Below the pieces are notes generated by a model, which saw nothing but the letters and a program-made list of their open reading frames with translations, was not told where the DNA came from and searched no databases. From a virus, in IMG/VR virus record IMGVR_UViG_3300029448_000208, positions 1 to 32,067 of that record: 32,067 bases of DNA, one strand, 5' to 3'. A program made the translations under genes and the position numbers. Shown here in pieces: positions 5,337-13,098 of the stretch (positions within the stretch are counted from its first letter, which is position 1; each line of letters opens with the position of its first letter).

Positions 5337-5751
5337 CTTAACTTTTGATAGGGAGTTTCTTGCTAAAGTAAAAGCTGTAGAAACTGCTAGAAGAAAAACG
5401 CTACATACAAATGGTGTACCAATGCACTACATGTTAGCGTTTAAAATAATATGTATACTTGATGAACAAGATTTATCTATCGAGAATATATCTGTAAAGT
5501 ACAGAGATGTTTTTGGTAGAGGTATCAATGCTTCATCATTATCAAGAACACTTTTATATTTATCGGAAAAACCTAAAGGTGGAGTGTTAGGATTAATTAC
5601 TTATGTTGATAATCCTTTCGCACCTTCAGATGGTAGATTTAAAGGTGTTGGTTTAACTGCAAGTGGTATCAGATTAAAAAAGATATTGTTAGGCCAAAGT
5701 ATTACACCTGCAACTGAACATGTTAAATCAAAAATAAGGAGTGTTAGATAA
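5311..5751 (+). CDS. Winged-helix-like DNA-binding protein upstream of integrase
   Basis: A 146-residue protein starting at ATG 5311 (an in-frame GTG precedes it) with GAGGGAAG as ribosome site. Residues about 35-115 resemble a MarR-type winged helix: a helix with FKIICILDEQDLSIENI, a recognition-helix-like GINASSLSRTLLYLS, then a wing with DGRFKGVGLTASGIRLKK. The stop overlaps the integrase ATG (TAATG). Its position next to integrase suggests a role in controlling integration/excision or lysogeny, for example a directionality factor, but this is inferred. The family call is by fold pattern, not by a named match. Confidence 0.6.
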   Translation: MSKEAVVGNLTFDREFLAKVKAVETARRKTLHTNGVPMHYMLAFKIICILDEQDLSIENISVKYRDVFGRGINASSLSRTLLYLSEKPKGGVLGLITYVDNPFAPSDGRFKGVGLTASGIRLKKILLGQSITPATEHVKSKIRSVR

Positions 5752-6953
5752 TGGAAATACCAAAAGGTATATATCGTAGAGGTGACAGTCTACAAGTACT
5801 TACAAGAAAAAGAATTAAAGGTGAAAAGAAACCTTTATCTCTTTCTGCTTCAGTACAAATAGATGAGTATAACTCATTAGACGAAGCTATAGTTGAAGCT
5901 AAGAAACTAAAGAAACTACAAAAAGAAACTATATCTACAAATGGTTTTAACAATACATTAAAAAAGAAAGTTAGAACTGTAGGTATACTAGGTGAAGTAA
6001 TACAAGATGTGTTAAAAGAAAAAGAACCTTTAGCTTCTTATACTAATCATAAAATCTATGCGAAAGATATTCTTGAATATTTTCCAAGAGATATAAGATT
6101 AGATGAGATGCAGACACAGCAACATTACAAAAACTTTAAAATAAAAATGCAAGATTTAATTTTAGCAAGACCTAGAAATAATCTTGGTAGTTACAACACA
6201 AGAAGTTTAAATAAACGATTAGGTTTTCTTCGTGATATATTTAAACATGGATTGACTAATAGATTATTGTCAGCAGATAAATTATTAGACAATAGTCCTG
6301 ATGCTATAGCTAGACACATGGGTTGGAGAAATGAAGCTGTAATTGAAACTAAACAAAAGAATATAATTACACCGCAAGATGAACAAGACATTGTTGATGA
6401 AGCTACATTTGATGGTGAACAAGAATTTGTTGATGCCTTCAGGTGGTTATTAAATGGTTATGGTATGCGTATTGAGTTTGAGTTTCAGAAACTAACAGTT
6501 GATTTGATTAAGTTTCCAAGAGGTAAAGATACTAAATGTACAATCAATTTTTTCCGAAATAAAACTAAAAAGTGGTCAGGTGATTTACCAATGAATGAAG
6601 TAACTAAAGAGATTGCATTAAGATACAGGTCAGTAGCTTTTGCAAGAGCAGATAAAAAGTTATTTCCTACCATGACTAAACGTAGACTACGTACATTGTT
6701 TGAGAAATATTCTAAAAGATTAAAGTTAGATATTACACCTTACTGTACGAAGCATACGTTCATTACAAGATTAGCTGAAAATAAAAATCCTATAAAGACT
6801 ATATCTAAACTTGCAGGTATATCTCAGGACACAGCTTTAAAGTATTATAACCAAGTTACAGATGAAGGTATGGAAGAAGCTATGCAGTCATTAGAGAATG
6901 ATAGTAGTAAAGTAGTATCTATGTATGGTCATAATCGGAGATTGCAGAATTAA
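5751..6953 (+). CDS. int: Tyrosine-recombinase integrase
   Basis: A 400-residue phage integrase with an N-terminal arm-binding-like part (about 1-75), a core-binding SAM-like region (about 78-180) and a C-terminal catalytic domain. The first catalytic Arg is visible in NGYGMRIEFEFQKL (Arg240), and the nucleophile in DTALKYYNQV is Tyr365 or 366. The box that usually reads HxLRHT is here PYCTKHTFIT, with Tyr331 for His and Lys334 for Arg, and the usual GH before the Tyr is GI. The protein should recombine the phage attP with a host tRNA gene. It is followed 31 bases later by tRNA-Leu and an attP-like region, which supports this. Confidence 0.92.
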   Translation: MEIPKGIYRRGDSLQVLTRKRIKGEKKPLSLSASVQIDEYNSLDEAIVEAKKLKKLQKETISTNGFNNTLKKKVRTVGILGEVIQDVLKEKEPLASYTNHKIYAKDILEYFPRDIRLDEMQTQQHYKNFKIKMQDLILARPRNNLGSYNTRSLNKRLGFLRDIFKHGLTNRLLSADKLLDNSPDAIARHMGWRNEAVIETKQKNIITPQDEQDIVDEATFDGEQEFVDAFRWLLNGYGMRIEFEFQKLTVDLIKFPRGKDTKCTINFFRNKTKKWSGDLPMNEVTKEIALRYRSVAFARADKKLFPTMTKRRLRTLFEKYSKRLKLDITPYCTKHTFITRLAENKNPIKTISKLAGISQDTALKYYNQVTDEGMEEAMQSLENDSSKVVSMYGHNRRLQN

Positions 6954-6984
6954 ATGAAACCTGCTATTTACACTACAAAAATTT

Positions 6985-7068
6985 GGGCGAGTGGTGGAAT
7001 GGTAGACACGCCAGTCTTAGGAACTGGTCGAGCAATCGGTGAAGGTTCAAGTCCTTTCTCGCCTACCA
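6985..7068 (+). tRNA. tRNA-Leu (anticodon UAG), complete with CCA
   Basis: All arms can be folded: acceptor GGGCGAG/CTCGCCT (one G-T pair), D arm GTG/CAC with GG in the loop, anticodon stem CCAGT/ACTGG with loop CTTAGGA (anticodon TAG), a long class II variable arm with CGA/TCG stem, T stem GAAGG/CCTTT with loop TTCAAGT, discriminator A and encoded CCA. It reads CUA codons. It lies between int and the attP-like repeats. It may be a functional phage tRNA, part of the attachment site, or both. Confidence 0.92.
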
Positions 7069-7090
7069 GAAGCAACAACTGGAAAAAGTT

Positions 7091-7312
7091 TGTTGCACAG
7101 GGTGTTGCATTAATTAATCTTTGTTGCACAATAAATTGTGAAAAGGAGAGTTTTAAGGGAAAAAGCCTAAGGCACTAGTCTTAGGAACTCTTTCTCTTAA
7201 AATTATTTTCACAAGTGCAATTAGTTAGCTAATAGCAACACCTTTTTTTAAAAACTAATACTTGCACTACTGCAATAGTTACTGTGCAACGTGCAACAGA
7301 ACTAGTGCAACA
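7091..7312. other. attP: Probable phage attachment site (attP) with arm-type repeats
   Basis: Three direct TGTTGCA(C/T) copies (7091-7098, 7103-7110, 7122-7129) lie left of a core, and three GTGCAAC(A) copies in the opposite orientation (7284-7290, 7291-7298, 7305-7312) lie right of it. The core has CCTAAG (7166-7171) and CTTAGG (7180-7185) as inverted 6-base arms around 8 bases, and includes AGTCTTAGGAACT (7177-7189), a perfect 13-base copy of the tRNA-Leu anticodon stem-loop at 7013-7025. Arm-type repeats around an inverted core next to int is the standard lambda-family attP layout. The assignment is inferred from that layout. Confidence 0.55.
7262..7275. promoter_or_regulatory. Operator-like palindrome TTGCA-N4-TGCAA, copy 2
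   Basis: TTGCA-CTAC-TGCAA is about 77 bases before the RNA polymerase start. Its spacer resembles that of copy 1. It is within the region of arm-like repeats, so integrase binding is an alternative to repressor binding. Confidence 0.5.
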
Positions 7313-7326
7313 TTGCATTAGTGCAA
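7313..7326. promoter_or_regulatory. Operator-like palindrome TTGCA-N4-TGCAA, copy 3
   Basis: TTGCA-TTAG-TGCAA ends 25 bases before the RNA polymerase ATG and just before its ribosome site. A protein bound here would block transcription into, or translation start of, the polymerase gene. It touches the rightmost GTGCAACA repeat. Confidence 0.55.
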
Positions 7327-7351
7327 ACAATATAAGGAGAATGTTCACATT

Positions 7352-8329
7352 ATGTCTGATGAACCTAAAACATTGCTACAACAACAATTAGCCGAACTTA
7401 TTAAAGTTGGTGTTGGTGGTAAATTTAAAGATAGAAATGATTATGTAAGCCAAGTAACTAAAGAACTAGAGTTTGAGGAAGCTATGTTACGTGGTGGTAT
7501 TAATCGTTACAATAAAGCAGTAAATGACGCCAAAACTAAAGGCCAAGAAAGTACTACGATATATGGCCTAGTTTTACAGCAAAAGTACATCAATGAATTA
7601 TCTAATAAAATTAATGATGATGTTAAGATGATGGACAAAGGACAAGCAGGTAATTATCAAACTGCTCTTAAATTATTATGTCAATGTCTACCACCTACAG
7701 CTTTTGATAATGGTGTCTTTTTAGATAAGCGTATAAGCGTATGGGATACTTGTTCTCTGATTGCATTGAAGAATACTATTGATGGTATTTCAGATGAAAT
7801 AACAATGAACAAACTATCTATACAAATAGGTACTGGTTTAATGCACGAAGCAAGAATAACCAAGTTTAAGTATGACCATAAAGAACAATACAATAATGTA
7901 GCTAAAAAGTTATCAGGTAAAAACATACCCCAAAATACTAATAGGTATCAATACAAACAGAAGGTATGGACTTATTGTATGAATAAGCATGGTCTTGCTT
8001 TTAATGACTGGACTAAAGAACAAAGACTTCATTTAGGTGTAAAGATAATAGGATATATGGAACAGTTGGGTCTCATTAGACACCAACATAGAAAACTTAA
8101 TATAAAGAAAACTGTTATTTATATTGAAGCAACACCAAAGATTATTGAAGAAATAAAAAACTTTAATATTAAAAACGAAGCCTTGTTTCCAAAATTTTTA
8201 CCAATGAAAATGCCACCACGTGATTGGACTTCACCTTTTCTGGGTGGTTACTATGGTAAAAAATTCAACGATACAAATAACCCAGAGGAGATAGCACGTG
8301 CATTACAATCTAATAAAAGCGACAAATAG
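7352..8329 (+). CDS. T7-type RNA polymerase, N-terminal domain part
   Basis: This 325-residue protein matches the N-terminal domain of single-subunit phage RNA polymerases, which in T7 is about residues 1-325 and handles promoter melting, AT-rich recognition and early RNA. Recognisable segments are IGTGLMHEARITKFK, the block YKQKVWTYCMNKHGL, LHLGVKIIGYMEQLGL, and MPPRDWTSPFLGGYY near residues 285-301. The frame stops with TAG at 8327 just after this domain, and the catalytic domain is encoded in the +1 frame from 8298. The two may be a natural two-subunit polymerase, or one gene with a frameshift or sequence error. Repeats with operator character precede the gene. Confidence 0.85.
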   Translation: MSDEPKTLLQQQLAELIKVGVGGKFKDRNDYVSQVTKELEFEEAMLRGGINRYNKAVNDAKTKGQESTTIYGLVLQQKYINELSNKINDDVKMMDKGQAGNYQTALKLLCQCLPPTAFDNGVFLDKRISVWDTCSLIALKNTIDGISDEITMNKLSIQIGTGLMHEARITKFKYDHKEQYNNVAKKLSGKNIPQNTNRYQYKQKVWTYCMNKHGLAFNDWTKEQRLHLGVKIIGYMEQLGLIRHQHRKLNIKKTVIYIEATPKIIEEIKNFNIKNEALFPKFLPMKMPPRDWTSPFLGGYYGKKFNDTNNPEEIARALQSNKSDK

Positions 8330-9971
8330 AAGATACTTAGAAGAACTTAACAACAGATGGCATGAGTTTCCTGATGTTCCTAAATGTGTAAACATAATGC
8401 AAAAAACTGAATGGGTTATTAACTCACCAGTATTTGATGTATTAAACAAATGTTTAGAAGAAGATTTACCTTTAGGAAAATTACCGATTAATCCTCAAAG
8501 TATGGAACTTCCACCTAAACCTTTTGATATTGAAACTAATGTTGAAGCAAGACGTGAATGGAAAAGAAAAGCACAACGTGTCTATAAAAACAGAGCCAAG
8601 TCTAAATCTAAATACATTCAAGTAAAACAAATAATAGAAGAAGCAAAACATTTTGCAAATGAGGAAGGTTTCTTTTATCCATATCAACTTGACTTTAGAG
8701 GTCGTATATATCCAAAAAGTACACTCATGTCTCCACAGTCAGCAGACTACGCAAGAGCATTACTTAAATTTAAATTTGGTAGACCAATGACAGACAATGA
8801 AGCATTTGTAGATTTTGCTATTGCAGGTGCAGGATTATTTGGTGAAGTTGATAAAGAACAAATAGATATAAGAACTAAATGGGTAGAAGATAATAGTCAA
8901 AAATTTATTGACTGTGCTAACAAACCTTTTGAATACACATGGTGGACAGAAGCAGATAAACCATTTTGTTTTTTAGCTTGGTGTATTGAGTATCGAGATT
9001 TTGCTAATACTGATTTTGATGCAAAGTTTATTACAACTTTACCAATACAATCTGATTGTTCTAATTCAGGTCTACAACATTATTCAGCTATGATGAGAGA
9101 TGAAGTGGGCGGTAGTGCAACTAATCTTGTACCACAAAATAAACCTGCTGATGTTTATGGTCTAGTTGCTGATAAACTTATTATTAAATTAAAAGACAAT
9201 AATAAACCAATGGCTAAAAAATGGTTAGACTATGGAGTAGATAGAAAACTTTGTAAGAAACCTGTCATGTGTTTACCTTACAGTTTGACAATGTATTCTT
9301 GTAGACAATACTTACAAGACCATGTTGAAAAAGAATATGTTGAACGTAATAGACAGCATGAGTTTGGTGAAGATTTATTTCAAGCTACACAATGGTTGAC
9401 ACCTATTTTATGGAACGCAATTAATGAAGTTATTGTAGGTGCTAAAGAGATAATGAAATTTTTAAAAGATGTTTCAAAGTTAGTTGCTTCTGAAAATTTA
9501 CCTGTGGTATGGACTTCACCGCTTGGCTTACCAATTCAAATGCTATGTTATAAAAAAGAAAGTAAAAGAGTTAAGACACAAATGGGTGATAGTATAATTA
9601 AATTATCGTTACAATCAGATACAGATATAATTAATCGTAGAGCCGTAGCTCAAGCTATCTGCCCAAATTTTATTCATCACCTCGATAGTGCAACACTTAT
9701 GTTAGCTGTAGTTAAAGCTGAAGAAATGGGAGTTGATACTTTTAGTCTTATCCATGACAGCTTTGGTGTAGTAGCACCTGACAGTAGGAAAATGGCCACA
9801 GCATTACGTGATGCTTTTTGTGAGATATATAGCAAAGATGTACTGGCTAATTGGGCTATGGAAATGAAGCAAATGTTATCAGAAAAAAATCAAAAGAAGT
9901 TTCCTAATATACCAGAAAAAGGAAACCTTGATTTAGATTTAGTTAAACAAAGTGTGTTCTTTTGCGTATAA
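8298..9971 (+). CDS. T7-type RNA polymerase, catalytic (palm/fingers) part
   Basis: A 557-residue frame carries the whole polymerase domain of a T7-like RNA polymerase. Catalytic Asp253 lies in SDCSNSGLQHYSAMMRDEVGG (T7 Asp537), Lys321 in the O helix RKLCKKPVMCLPYS with Tyr328 (T7 Lys631, Tyr639), and Asp487 in LIHDSFG (T7 Asp812). The specificity-loop region is about 418-445. The GTG start at 8298 has AGAGGAG (8284-8290) seven bases upstream, a strong ribosome site, and overlaps the N-terminal part by 32 bases. Joined by a +1 shift the total would be about 872 residues, close to the 883 of T7. The product transcribes the phage middle and late genes. Confidence 0.92.
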   Translation: MHYNLIKATNRRYLEELNNRWHEFPDVPKCVNIMQKTEWVINSPVFDVLNKCLEEDLPLGKLPINPQSMELPPKPFDIETNVEARREWKRKAQRVYKNRAKSKSKYIQVKQIIEEAKHFANEEGFFYPYQLDFRGRIYPKSTLMSPQSADYARALLKFKFGRPMTDNEAFVDFAIAGAGLFGEVDKEQIDIRTKWVEDNSQKFIDCANKPFEYTWWTEADKPFCFLAWCIEYRDFANTDFDAKFITTLPIQSDCSNSGLQHYSAMMRDEVGGSATNLVPQNKPADVYGLVADKLIIKLKDNNKPMAKKWLDYGVDRKLCKKPVMCLPYSLTMYSCRQYLQDHVEKEYVERNRQHEFGEDLFQATQWLTPILWNAINEVIVGAKEIMKFLKDVSKLVASENLPVVWTSPLGLPIQMLCYKKESKRVKTQMGDSIIKLSLQSDTDIINRRAVAQAICPNFIHHLDSATLMLAVVKAEEMGVDTFSLIHDSFGVVAPDSRKMATALRDAFCEIYSKDVLANWAMEMKQMLSEKNQKKFPNIPEKGNLDLDLVKQSVFFCV

Positions 9972-11534: not shown

Positions 11535-13098
11535 GTTTCTCCATCATAGCCCTTGTGAGAACTGTGGTAGCCGAGACAATCTAGGCGTATGGGAAGACCA
11601 TACATATTGTTTCGGTTGCCGACAGTACAAAACAACTAATGGAGACTTACCAAAAATAGAAAAGAAAAGGATAGATTTTAAGATGATTGAAGGAATTGTT
11701 GAAGCACTTCCTAGTAGAAAAATAGATAGTGATACTTGTAAAAAGTTTAATTACCAGACAGGTACTTACAAAGGTAAGCCTTGTCATATTGCAAACTACT
11801 ACGATAAAAATTTAAAAATTACAGCACAGCATTTAAGATTTGCTGACAAGTCATTTATATGGCTTGGTGATACAAATACCATATCTCTCTTTGGTCAAAA
11901 CTTATGGAGAGATGGCGGTAATAAATCTAAAGTTATTATAACTGAAGGTGAAATTGACTGTCTCTCCGTAAGTAAAATACAAAACAATAGATACCCAGTT
12001 GTCTCAGTACCTTCAGGTGCTACGTCAGCTAAAAAATATATTAAAAGAGAATTAGAATGGTTGTCTAAATTTGAGACTATTGTCTTAATGATGGATAATG
12101 ATGATGCAGGTAAAAAAGCAACTATTGAATGTGCTAATATATTACCTGTTAAAAAAGTTAAGATAGCATCTCTACCTGCAAAAGACCCAAATGAATTATT
12201 ACAAACTGGTCAATCAGGTAAATTATATGATGCTATATGGGAAGCCAAATCATATACACCACAAGGTATTATTGAAGGTGACCAAACAAAAGATTTATTG
12301 CTTAAAGATGATTATGTAGAAACTATTCCTTATCAATGGAATGGCCTAAATAAAAAACTTGGTGGTATTAGAAAAGGTGAACTTGTTTTATTAACAGCAG
12401 GTTCAGGTACAGGTAAGTCACAAGTCTGTAGAGAAATAGCACACCATTTAATCTGTAACAAACAGAAGGTTGGTTATATTGCTTTAGAAGAAAGTGTTAA
12501 GAGAAGTATTAGAGGTGTTGTTTCTGTAGGCTTAAATCAACTAATACATTTACCTGAAGTTAGACAAAAGATTTCTGACGAAAAAATTTTAGAGGAGTGG
12601 GAAAAAGTAAAAAACTATATTTGCTTTTATGAACACTTTGGTAGTTCAGACACAGATGATTTAATGAACCGTATTAGATATATGGTGCAGTCATTAGATT
12701 GTAAGACAATTATATTAGACCACATATCAATAGTAGTATCAGGTATTGGTGAAGGTGATGAAAGAAGATTAATAGATAACACTATGACACAACTAAGAAA
12801 GTTAGTTGAAGAATTAGGTTGTGCATTATTTTTAGTATCACATTTAAAAAGACCTGAAGGTAAAGGCCACGAAGAAGGTACACAAGTTTCTCTTTCTCAC
12901 CTCAGAGGTAGTCACAGTCTTGCAACTCTAGCAGACGAAGTGATTGCCTTTGAAAGAAACCAACAAGATGAAATTAATTCTAACATAATGAAAGTAAGAG
13001 TTTTAAAAAATAGATACTCAGGTGACACAGGTATTGCTTGTGATTTAGTTTACAATAAAGATACAGGTAGATTATCTGAAGGAAGTTTTGATGAATGA
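11524..13098 (+). CDS. DNA primase-helicase (T7 gp4-like)
   Basis: A bifunctional 524-residue protein (T7 gp4A is 566). The N-terminal zinc ribbon has Cys11, Cys14, Cys29 and Cys32 (CENC...CFGC). The TOPRIM primase part shows IITEGEIDCLSV near residue 140 and VLMMDNDDAGKKA near 188. The hexameric helicase has Walker A LLTAGSGTGKS near 289-299, TIILDHISIVVSG as Walker B, and the LFLVSHLKRP and HLRGSHSLATLADEV motifs. It unwinds DNA and makes primers at the phage fork with the neighbouring polymerase and SSB. The start overlaps the lysozyme end. Confidence 0.95.
   Translation: MTNKFLHHSPCENCGSRDNLGVWEDHTYCFGCRQYKTTNGDLPKIEKKRIDFKMIEGIVEALPSRKIDSDTCKKFNYQTGTYKGKPCHIANYYDKNLKITAQHLRFADKSFIWLGDTNTISLFGQNLWRDGGNKSKVIITEGEIDCLSVSKIQNNRYPVVSVPSGATSAKKYIKRELEWLSKFETIVLMMDNDDAGKKATIECANILPVKKVKIASLPAKDPNELLQTGQSGKLYDAIWEAKSYTPQGIIEGDQTKDLLLKDDYVETIPYQWNGLNKKLGGIRKGELVLLTAGSGTGKSQVCREIAHHLICNKQKVGYIALEESVKRSIRGVVSVGLNQLIHLPEVRQKISDEKILEEWEKVKNYICFYEHFGSSDTDDLMNRIRYMVQSLDCKTIILDHISIVVSGIGEGDERRLIDNTMTQLRKLVEELGCALFLVSHLKRPEGKGHEEGTQVSLSHLRGSHSLATLADEVIAFERNQQDEINSNIMKVRVLKNRYSGDTGIACDLVYNKDTGRLSEGSFDE

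Follow-up and report, generated by a model that had tools for sequence, protein, structure and literature searches.

Integration into tRNA-Leu(TAG) has been described for uv-Fonsiphage-EPL, HTVC011P and HTVC025P, whose prophages are flanked by tig (PMC6811365, in the passages covered here). The core of uv-Fonsiphage-EPL measures 11 bp, and the phage tRNA is said in these passages to replace the lost host function. The term tRNA-dependent lysogeny comes from work in which this dependence was genetically proved in mycobacteriophages; in the excerpts of PMC10865867 considered here, the authors ask about its prevalence beyond actinobacteriophages, the sole group with proof. According to parts of PMC10533544, tRNA integration hotspots of marine proviruses, Leu included, match the tRNAs that these viruses encode.

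The window, i.e. the whole stretch of 32,067 nt analysed here, is a linear 32-kb virus record from IMG/VR. Its nearest phage is Pelagibacter phage HTVC041P (87% DNA identity, 99% of positions 5700-9000 covered). The gene order of Stopavirus (HTVC019Pvirus group III) is found, namely int, tRNA-Leu, split RNA polymerase gene and T7-like replication and head genes, as indicated by similarity to HTVC041P and by PHROG matches. The latter comprise T7-like terminase, primase-helicase, DNA polymerase, head-tail and tail genes. Judged by its sequence, the window phage is a Stopavirus-like pelagiphage, a marine virus of SAR11 bacteria. Features of the locus are as follows (positions in the window):

5751..6953, + strand: tyrosine integrase, 400 aa (phrog_1, E 1e-19; Pfam PF00589, E 2e-6)
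6942..6970, + strand: putative tRNA promoter of sigma-70-like type, TTGCAG-17-TATTTA (by-eye comparison of upstream sequences)
6985..7068, + strand: intact tRNA-Leu(UAG) with encoded CCA (ARAGORN; Rfam RF00005, 57 bits)
7091..7130, + strand: putative left (P) arm with repeated GTTGCA arm-type sites (direct repeats, columns conserved in relatives)
7136..7215, + strand: hairpin-forming sequence over the attP core (RNA fold -31.6 kcal/mol, z -5.7, 0/200 shuffles as stable)
7177..7189, + strand: attP core AGTCTTAGGAACT, a 13-mer shared with the tRNA anticodon arm
7235..7249, + strand: terminator-like segment GCAACACC + T7 past the core and ahead of the RNA polymerase gene (almost unchanged across nine aligned relatives; function putative)
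7262..7326, + strand: putative right (P') arm with TGCAAC/TGCAAT repeats (inverted repeats I2, I3)
7352..9971, + strand: phage RNA polymerase in two overlapping ORFs, 7352-8329 and 8298-9971 (phrog_414 in both)

Integrase, tRNA and attachment core of the window

The integrase is 86% identical to that of HTVC041P and 45% identical to that of HTVC011P. Its gene adjoins attP, and both PF00589 and phrog_1 identify the product as a tyrosine integrase, the type found in tRNA-dependent lysogeny. Tyrosine recombinases usually carry an HxxRH motif; residues 331-335 of the window integrase read YCTKH at this position (Y..K for HxxR), and HTVC025P and Eyrgjafa-type integrases have YxTRH there.

A single tRNA is called by ARAGORN and RF00005, starting 31 nt past the end of the integrase gene. 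Nothing but this tRNA passes in Rfam, where weak miRNA-like matches merely mirror the attP hairpin. Compared with SAR11 tRNA-Leu(UAG) genes, it is most similar to that of genome G185 (79/84 positions, 94%), followed by L048 (78/84). The putative promoter TTGCAG-17-TATTTA was not flagged by a strict consensus promoter scan; many relatives have similar TTGAAA/TTGATT-16/17-TAxxxA sequences ahead of their tRNA.

The sequence AGTCTTAGGAACT occurs in the tRNA anticodon arm (7013-7025) and again at 7177-7189, 164 nt apart from start to start, with 108 bases separating the tRNA end from the second copy. The longest match of the tRNA to other sampled 282-nt stretches of the window is 10 nt, versus 13 at the core. 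The anticodon loop, CTTAGGA, lies within the core at 7180-7186. Sequence past 7189 is not tRNA-like, i.e. attP does not carry the tRNA 3' half known from classical integration. Three claims of the initial annotation are thereby confirmed: an intact tRNA-Leu(UAG) with CCA, a 13-base copy of its anticodon arm downstream (at a spacing of 108 bases), and post-core sequence that does not rebuild the 3' half. The complement of the GCAACACC + T7 segment, GGTGTTGC, is located at 7101-7108.

The proper comparison for the core is the host tRNA rather than the phage's own. Depending on SAR11 lineage, core and host anticodon arm agree over 11 nt (GTCTTAGGAAC), 13 nt, 15 nt (CTAGTCTTAGGAACT) or, in a CTTAGAA host, 7 nt. 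The window core matches host arm GCTAGTCTTAGGAACTAG over 15 nt (genomes G006, G012, G305, G221 and G393), host arm CCAGTCTTAGGAACTGG over 13 nt, and most other hosts over 11.

In all relatives that keep the intergenic region, tRNA-Leu follows int at a distance of about 30-340 nt, and the separate core lies about 83-190 nt beyond the tRNA. A lone 13-nt copy could in principle come from local duplication, so that the core would be a chance match or a remnant of the phage tRNA and no attachment site at all. We give this next to no credence, because HTVC025P, Eyrgjafa, L199 and L201 retain a host-like core despite a quite different anticodon stem in their own tRNA. The core therefore follows the host gene and, as HTVC025P and Eyrgjafa demonstrate, is not merely a duplicated piece of phage tRNA; moreover, natural lysogen junctions map to it (see below). 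In phage L179 the tRNA is tRNA-Leu(UAA) instead, and its core GACTTAAAA equals the sequence around the anticodon loop in SAR11 tRNA-Leu(UAA). Here, tRNA and core have switched isoacceptor together. The attPs of L213 and L224 contain tandem cores, CTTAGGA and CTTAGAA, equal to the two anticodon-loop variants of SAR11 hosts, possibly reflecting dual target specificity.

We propose that the window tRNA replaces a disrupted host tRNA. Many lytic phages carry tRNAs, some of them for codon compensation or for replacing nuclease-cleaved host tRNAs (general knowledge; also PMC10865867, in the excerpts considered), and the window tRNA might likewise serve lytic translation, its proximity to attP being incidental. 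Lytic and lysogenic roles could also coexist. As the full explanation, a lytic role is very unlikely. CUN codons account for 2.64% of codons in the phage versus 3.01% of sampled host codons, with no rise in CUN or CUA, which leaves codon compensation unsupported. Further arguments against a lytic role are that a single tRNA is carried, always the same isoacceptor as the core, that L179 switched both to Leu(UAA), and that tRNA and attP are jointly absent: L181-183, L185 and L197 lack tRNA as well as core, with int directly adjoining the RNA polymerase gene.

Host tRNA-Leu(UAG) in lysogens of related phages

Profile searches of SAR11 genomes with integrase alignments identified natural lysogens of related phages in ten draft genomes (G252, G110, G187, G182, G322, G423, G444, G530, G686 and G688). 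No lysogen of the exact window phage, or with a close integrase, was found in the genomes searched this way, and a peptide-pattern scan of genome contigs for the integrase yielded no relative. Prophages and window are syntenic, with about 50-80% identity for most structural and replication proteins and only about 26-38% for the five lysogen integrases compared. The tRNA-Leu(UAG) is present in window, relatives and lysogens alike.

In 10/10 lysogens the order is int, intact phage tRNA-Leu(UAG), about 95-150 nt, core, and 3' half of host tRNA-Leu(UAG). The latter is directly followed by tig (trigger factor) in nine of the ten, and in G530 tig comes after a further remnant. At the other end, where the phage RNA polymerase gene adjoins attR, the host 5' half was recovered in 3/10 lysogens, which are all three with enough contig. 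There, attR lies about 37 kb from attL (77,681 vs 40,787 in G187; 57,695 vs 21,021 in G182; about 287,297 vs 250,233 in G110) and contains the host 5' half, which runs as far as GTCTTAGGA (GTCTTAGAA in G110) before phage sequence GATACCGACAC takes over. From attP GTTAGTCTTAGGAGATACC and attB GTTGGTCTTAGGAACCAAT of G187 and G182 it follows that exchange took place inside GTCTTAGGA. Crossover is thus confined to about 9 bp of the anticodon loop and rebuilds no tRNA. A short core with unreconstructed tRNA, as in tRNA-dependent lysogeny, is seen in ten lysogens of relatives (at both junctions in three), while the window displays the core match only. With bounds taken from attL and attR of G187, G182 and G110, crossover in the window would fall within GTCTTAGGA (7178-7186).

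As an alternative, the complete phage tRNA might itself be attP and crossover inside it would rebuild the gene, as in classical tRNA integration. Many elements integrate in this manner, the phage tRNA is 94% identical to that of G185, and in G393 an element of 0.96 kb that uses the same host gene rebuilds the tRNA. Nevertheless, this is very improbable for the window phage, and for the relatives it is excluded: all ten lysogens keep the phage tRNA intact inside the prophage, about 150-180 nt from the junction (anticodon to anticodon), and the host half joins the separate downstream core.

The initial annotation had guessed that the target is single-copy, and this holds up. A pattern specific for host tRNA-Leu(UAG) matches 281/397 Pelagibacterales genomes and none of them more than once; the 116 unmatched genomes have variants or gaps, so that single copy holds for the matched genomes. 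In each lysogen, CTTAGRA-N18-28-GTTCRA has tRNA-like matches only at the split host half and at the phage tRNA. Apart from one fused-junction tRNA in G686, ARAGORN called no further tRNA-Leu(UAG) in the sequence inspected around the prophages. We judged this call spurious, as phage sequence makes up its 5' part and GTGTTGG forms no proper acceptor stem with host TTGCCCA. In natural lysogens of relatives, the host gene is cut, its junctions lie at the core, and the phage copy is the sole intact tRNA-Leu(UAG) found. The prediction that the host gene is disrupted and replaced by the phage copy is accordingly very probably right.

We therefore regard the locus, with high confidence, as a module for tRNA-dependent lysogeny in which host tRNA-Leu(UAG) is split and the phage tRNA substitutes for it. 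At the attP core (7177-7189), the integrase would recombine phage DNA with the anticodon loop of the single host tRNA-Leu(UAG), just upstream of tig. With no more than about 9-15 bp shared between attP and attB, integration would halve the host gene without rebuilding a tRNA at either junction. The phage tRNA-Leu(UAG), sited between integrase and attP and probably transcribed from its own promoter, would decode CUN (above all CUA) codons and so allow the lysogen to survive. An anticodon UAG is expected to read CUA. As CUN codons are in use (about 3.0% of sampled host codons, about 2.6% in the phage), loss of the host gene should be lethal unless the phage tRNA works. We infer that the window phage acts like its relatives, with its tRNA expressed and charged and the host tRNA essential. 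Points that tell against this reading are the lack of a lysogen with a close integrase among the genomes searched, the draft state of the lysogen genomes with attR recovered in three of ten, the ARAGORN call at the G686 junction, and the Y..K residues of the window integrase.

The start of tig is located about 8-20 nt past the CCA of the host tRNA in the attL sequences L141-L145. Being so close, tig is also severed by integration from promoters upstream of the tRNA. The putative promoter of the phage tRNA has the same direction as tig and might drive it.

Up to the core, the prophages of G182 and G686 align over 3,047 positions with 99.3% identity. Host DNA beyond the core is only 73-75% identical in its alignable part, with strongly different tRNA 3' halves. 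With nothing but a 3' half, a phage could restore a well-paired tRNA in just one of the two hosts, whereas a complete tRNA suits both. This single pair suggests that a complete tRNA may be advantageous across hosts.

Several other traces are found at host tRNA-Leu genes. In G530 (L267), further P'-arm-like repeats GATCGTATCAA and a second remnant separate the split host tRNA from tig, which suggests repeated integrations at one site. The G393 element (G393:C9:32357-33315, L257; about 0.96 kb, one 195-aa ORF) lies between an intact tRNA-Leu(UAG) and an exact 3'-half repeat before tig; it uses the same site yet rebuilds the tRNA. In G185, the genome tRNA-Leu(UAG) (L256, G185:C5:5029-5227) is 96.5% identical to a phage tRNA, and a 115-bp gap before tig holds an inverted piece resembling the host tRNA 5' half (GGAATTGGTAGACGCG); this tRNA is possibly a phage tRNA retained after prophage loss. 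G185 and G393, whose tRNA is not directly before tig, were considered as lysogens and rejected, since there is no such prophage at this place. Finally, L264 (G001:C2:197906) and L263 (G162:C1:12118) each hold a tRNA-Leu(UAA) 5' half that breaks off after GACTTAAAA and continues into unrelated sequence. Both genomes have an intact tRNA-Leu(UAA) elsewhere (1.6 kb off in G001), and the cut halves are signs of elements targeting the tRNA-Leu(UAA) anticodon loop.

Potential hairpin across the core

The core is located on the 3' side of the loop or in the upper stem of a long potential hairpin. Comparable z-scores were obtained for attPs of L179 (-5.5), HTVC025P (-4.5) and L176 (-4.2). When arms were swapped among 36 attPs, the mean pairing energy was -22.3 kcal/mol for arms from the same phage versus -14.3 for swaps between phages. 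Pairing of the arms is kept in relatives despite widely diverged arm sequences, with G-U pairs being common. RNAalifold detected no pair changed on both sides among nine Stopavirus-type attPs, so that z-scores of single sequences and the arm-swap test, rather than alignment covariation, support the hairpin. It is not unique, as folding windows near 11,541-11,566 are more stable. The segment 11541-11645, at the start of the primase-helicase ORF, contains the most stable 80-nt RNA fold of the + strand (-35.3 kcal/mol).

Since the right arm starts beside the crossover, integration sends the two arms to opposite prophage ends. In lambda, sib retroregulation depends on a hairpin beside attP, downstream of int, which is parted from int upon integration. 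By analogy, the attP hairpin may keep int-tRNA transcripts in check as long as the phage is free, a limit lifted in the prophage, where they would extend into tig. Its function is the least certain part of our analysis, and the arms might be protein-binding sites instead. As a tentative reading, to which we would not give even chances, the hairpin would be an integration-sensitive RNA switch, and short core together with carried tRNA would widen the lysogenic host range. In free phage, the hairpin would end or destabilise the int-tRNA transcript. After integration, with the arms 37 kb apart, the transcript would proceed through attL into tig, whose own promoter region is cut off. One attP could in this way serve SAR11 lineages with divergent tRNA-Leu genes.

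Comparison with known systems

The hairpin resembles lambda sib in that, lying downstream of int, it would be separated from int by integration. Unlike sib, it spans the core itself, and RNase III processing or an effect on int is not known for it.

In gene order, tRNA-Leu target beside tig, short core and own tRNA-Leu, the window is like HTVC011P, HTVC025P and uv-Fonsiphage-EPL (PMC6811365, in the passages covered), and differs from these three as another member of the group, nearest to HTVC041P. As the mechanism has been published for the same group, the window represents a new member with an already known mechanism. It shares a tyrosine integrase and a tRNA gene as attB with classical integration at tRNA sites. 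In Omega and Ximenita, however, attP includes the 3' half of the tRNA (33-52 bp) and integration restores the gene (PMC10865867, in the excerpts considered), which is not the case for the window attP. The same excerpts describe Fionnbharth, LeBron and Gaia among mycobacteriophages and Gordonia phages, with which the window has in common a tyrosine integrase, a core within a host tRNA (8-17 bp in theirs) that is left unreconstructed, and a tRNA of the same isotype. Phages and hosts are unrelated, and the requirement for the tRNA was proved there by mutants and is inferred here.

Within a large group of pelagiphages, tRNA-dependent lysogeny looks common, accompanied by natural lysogens, a single-copy target and the joint isoacceptor switch. 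The G182/G686 pair suggests why a whole tRNA is carried: it frees the phage from matching the host tRNA sequence. Neither isoacceptor switch nor attP hairpin is reported in the passages of PMC6811365 covered. Together with the pair of one phage in two hosts, these are what the present analysis adds to PMC6811365, PMC10865867 and PMC10533544, as far as the parts considered extend.
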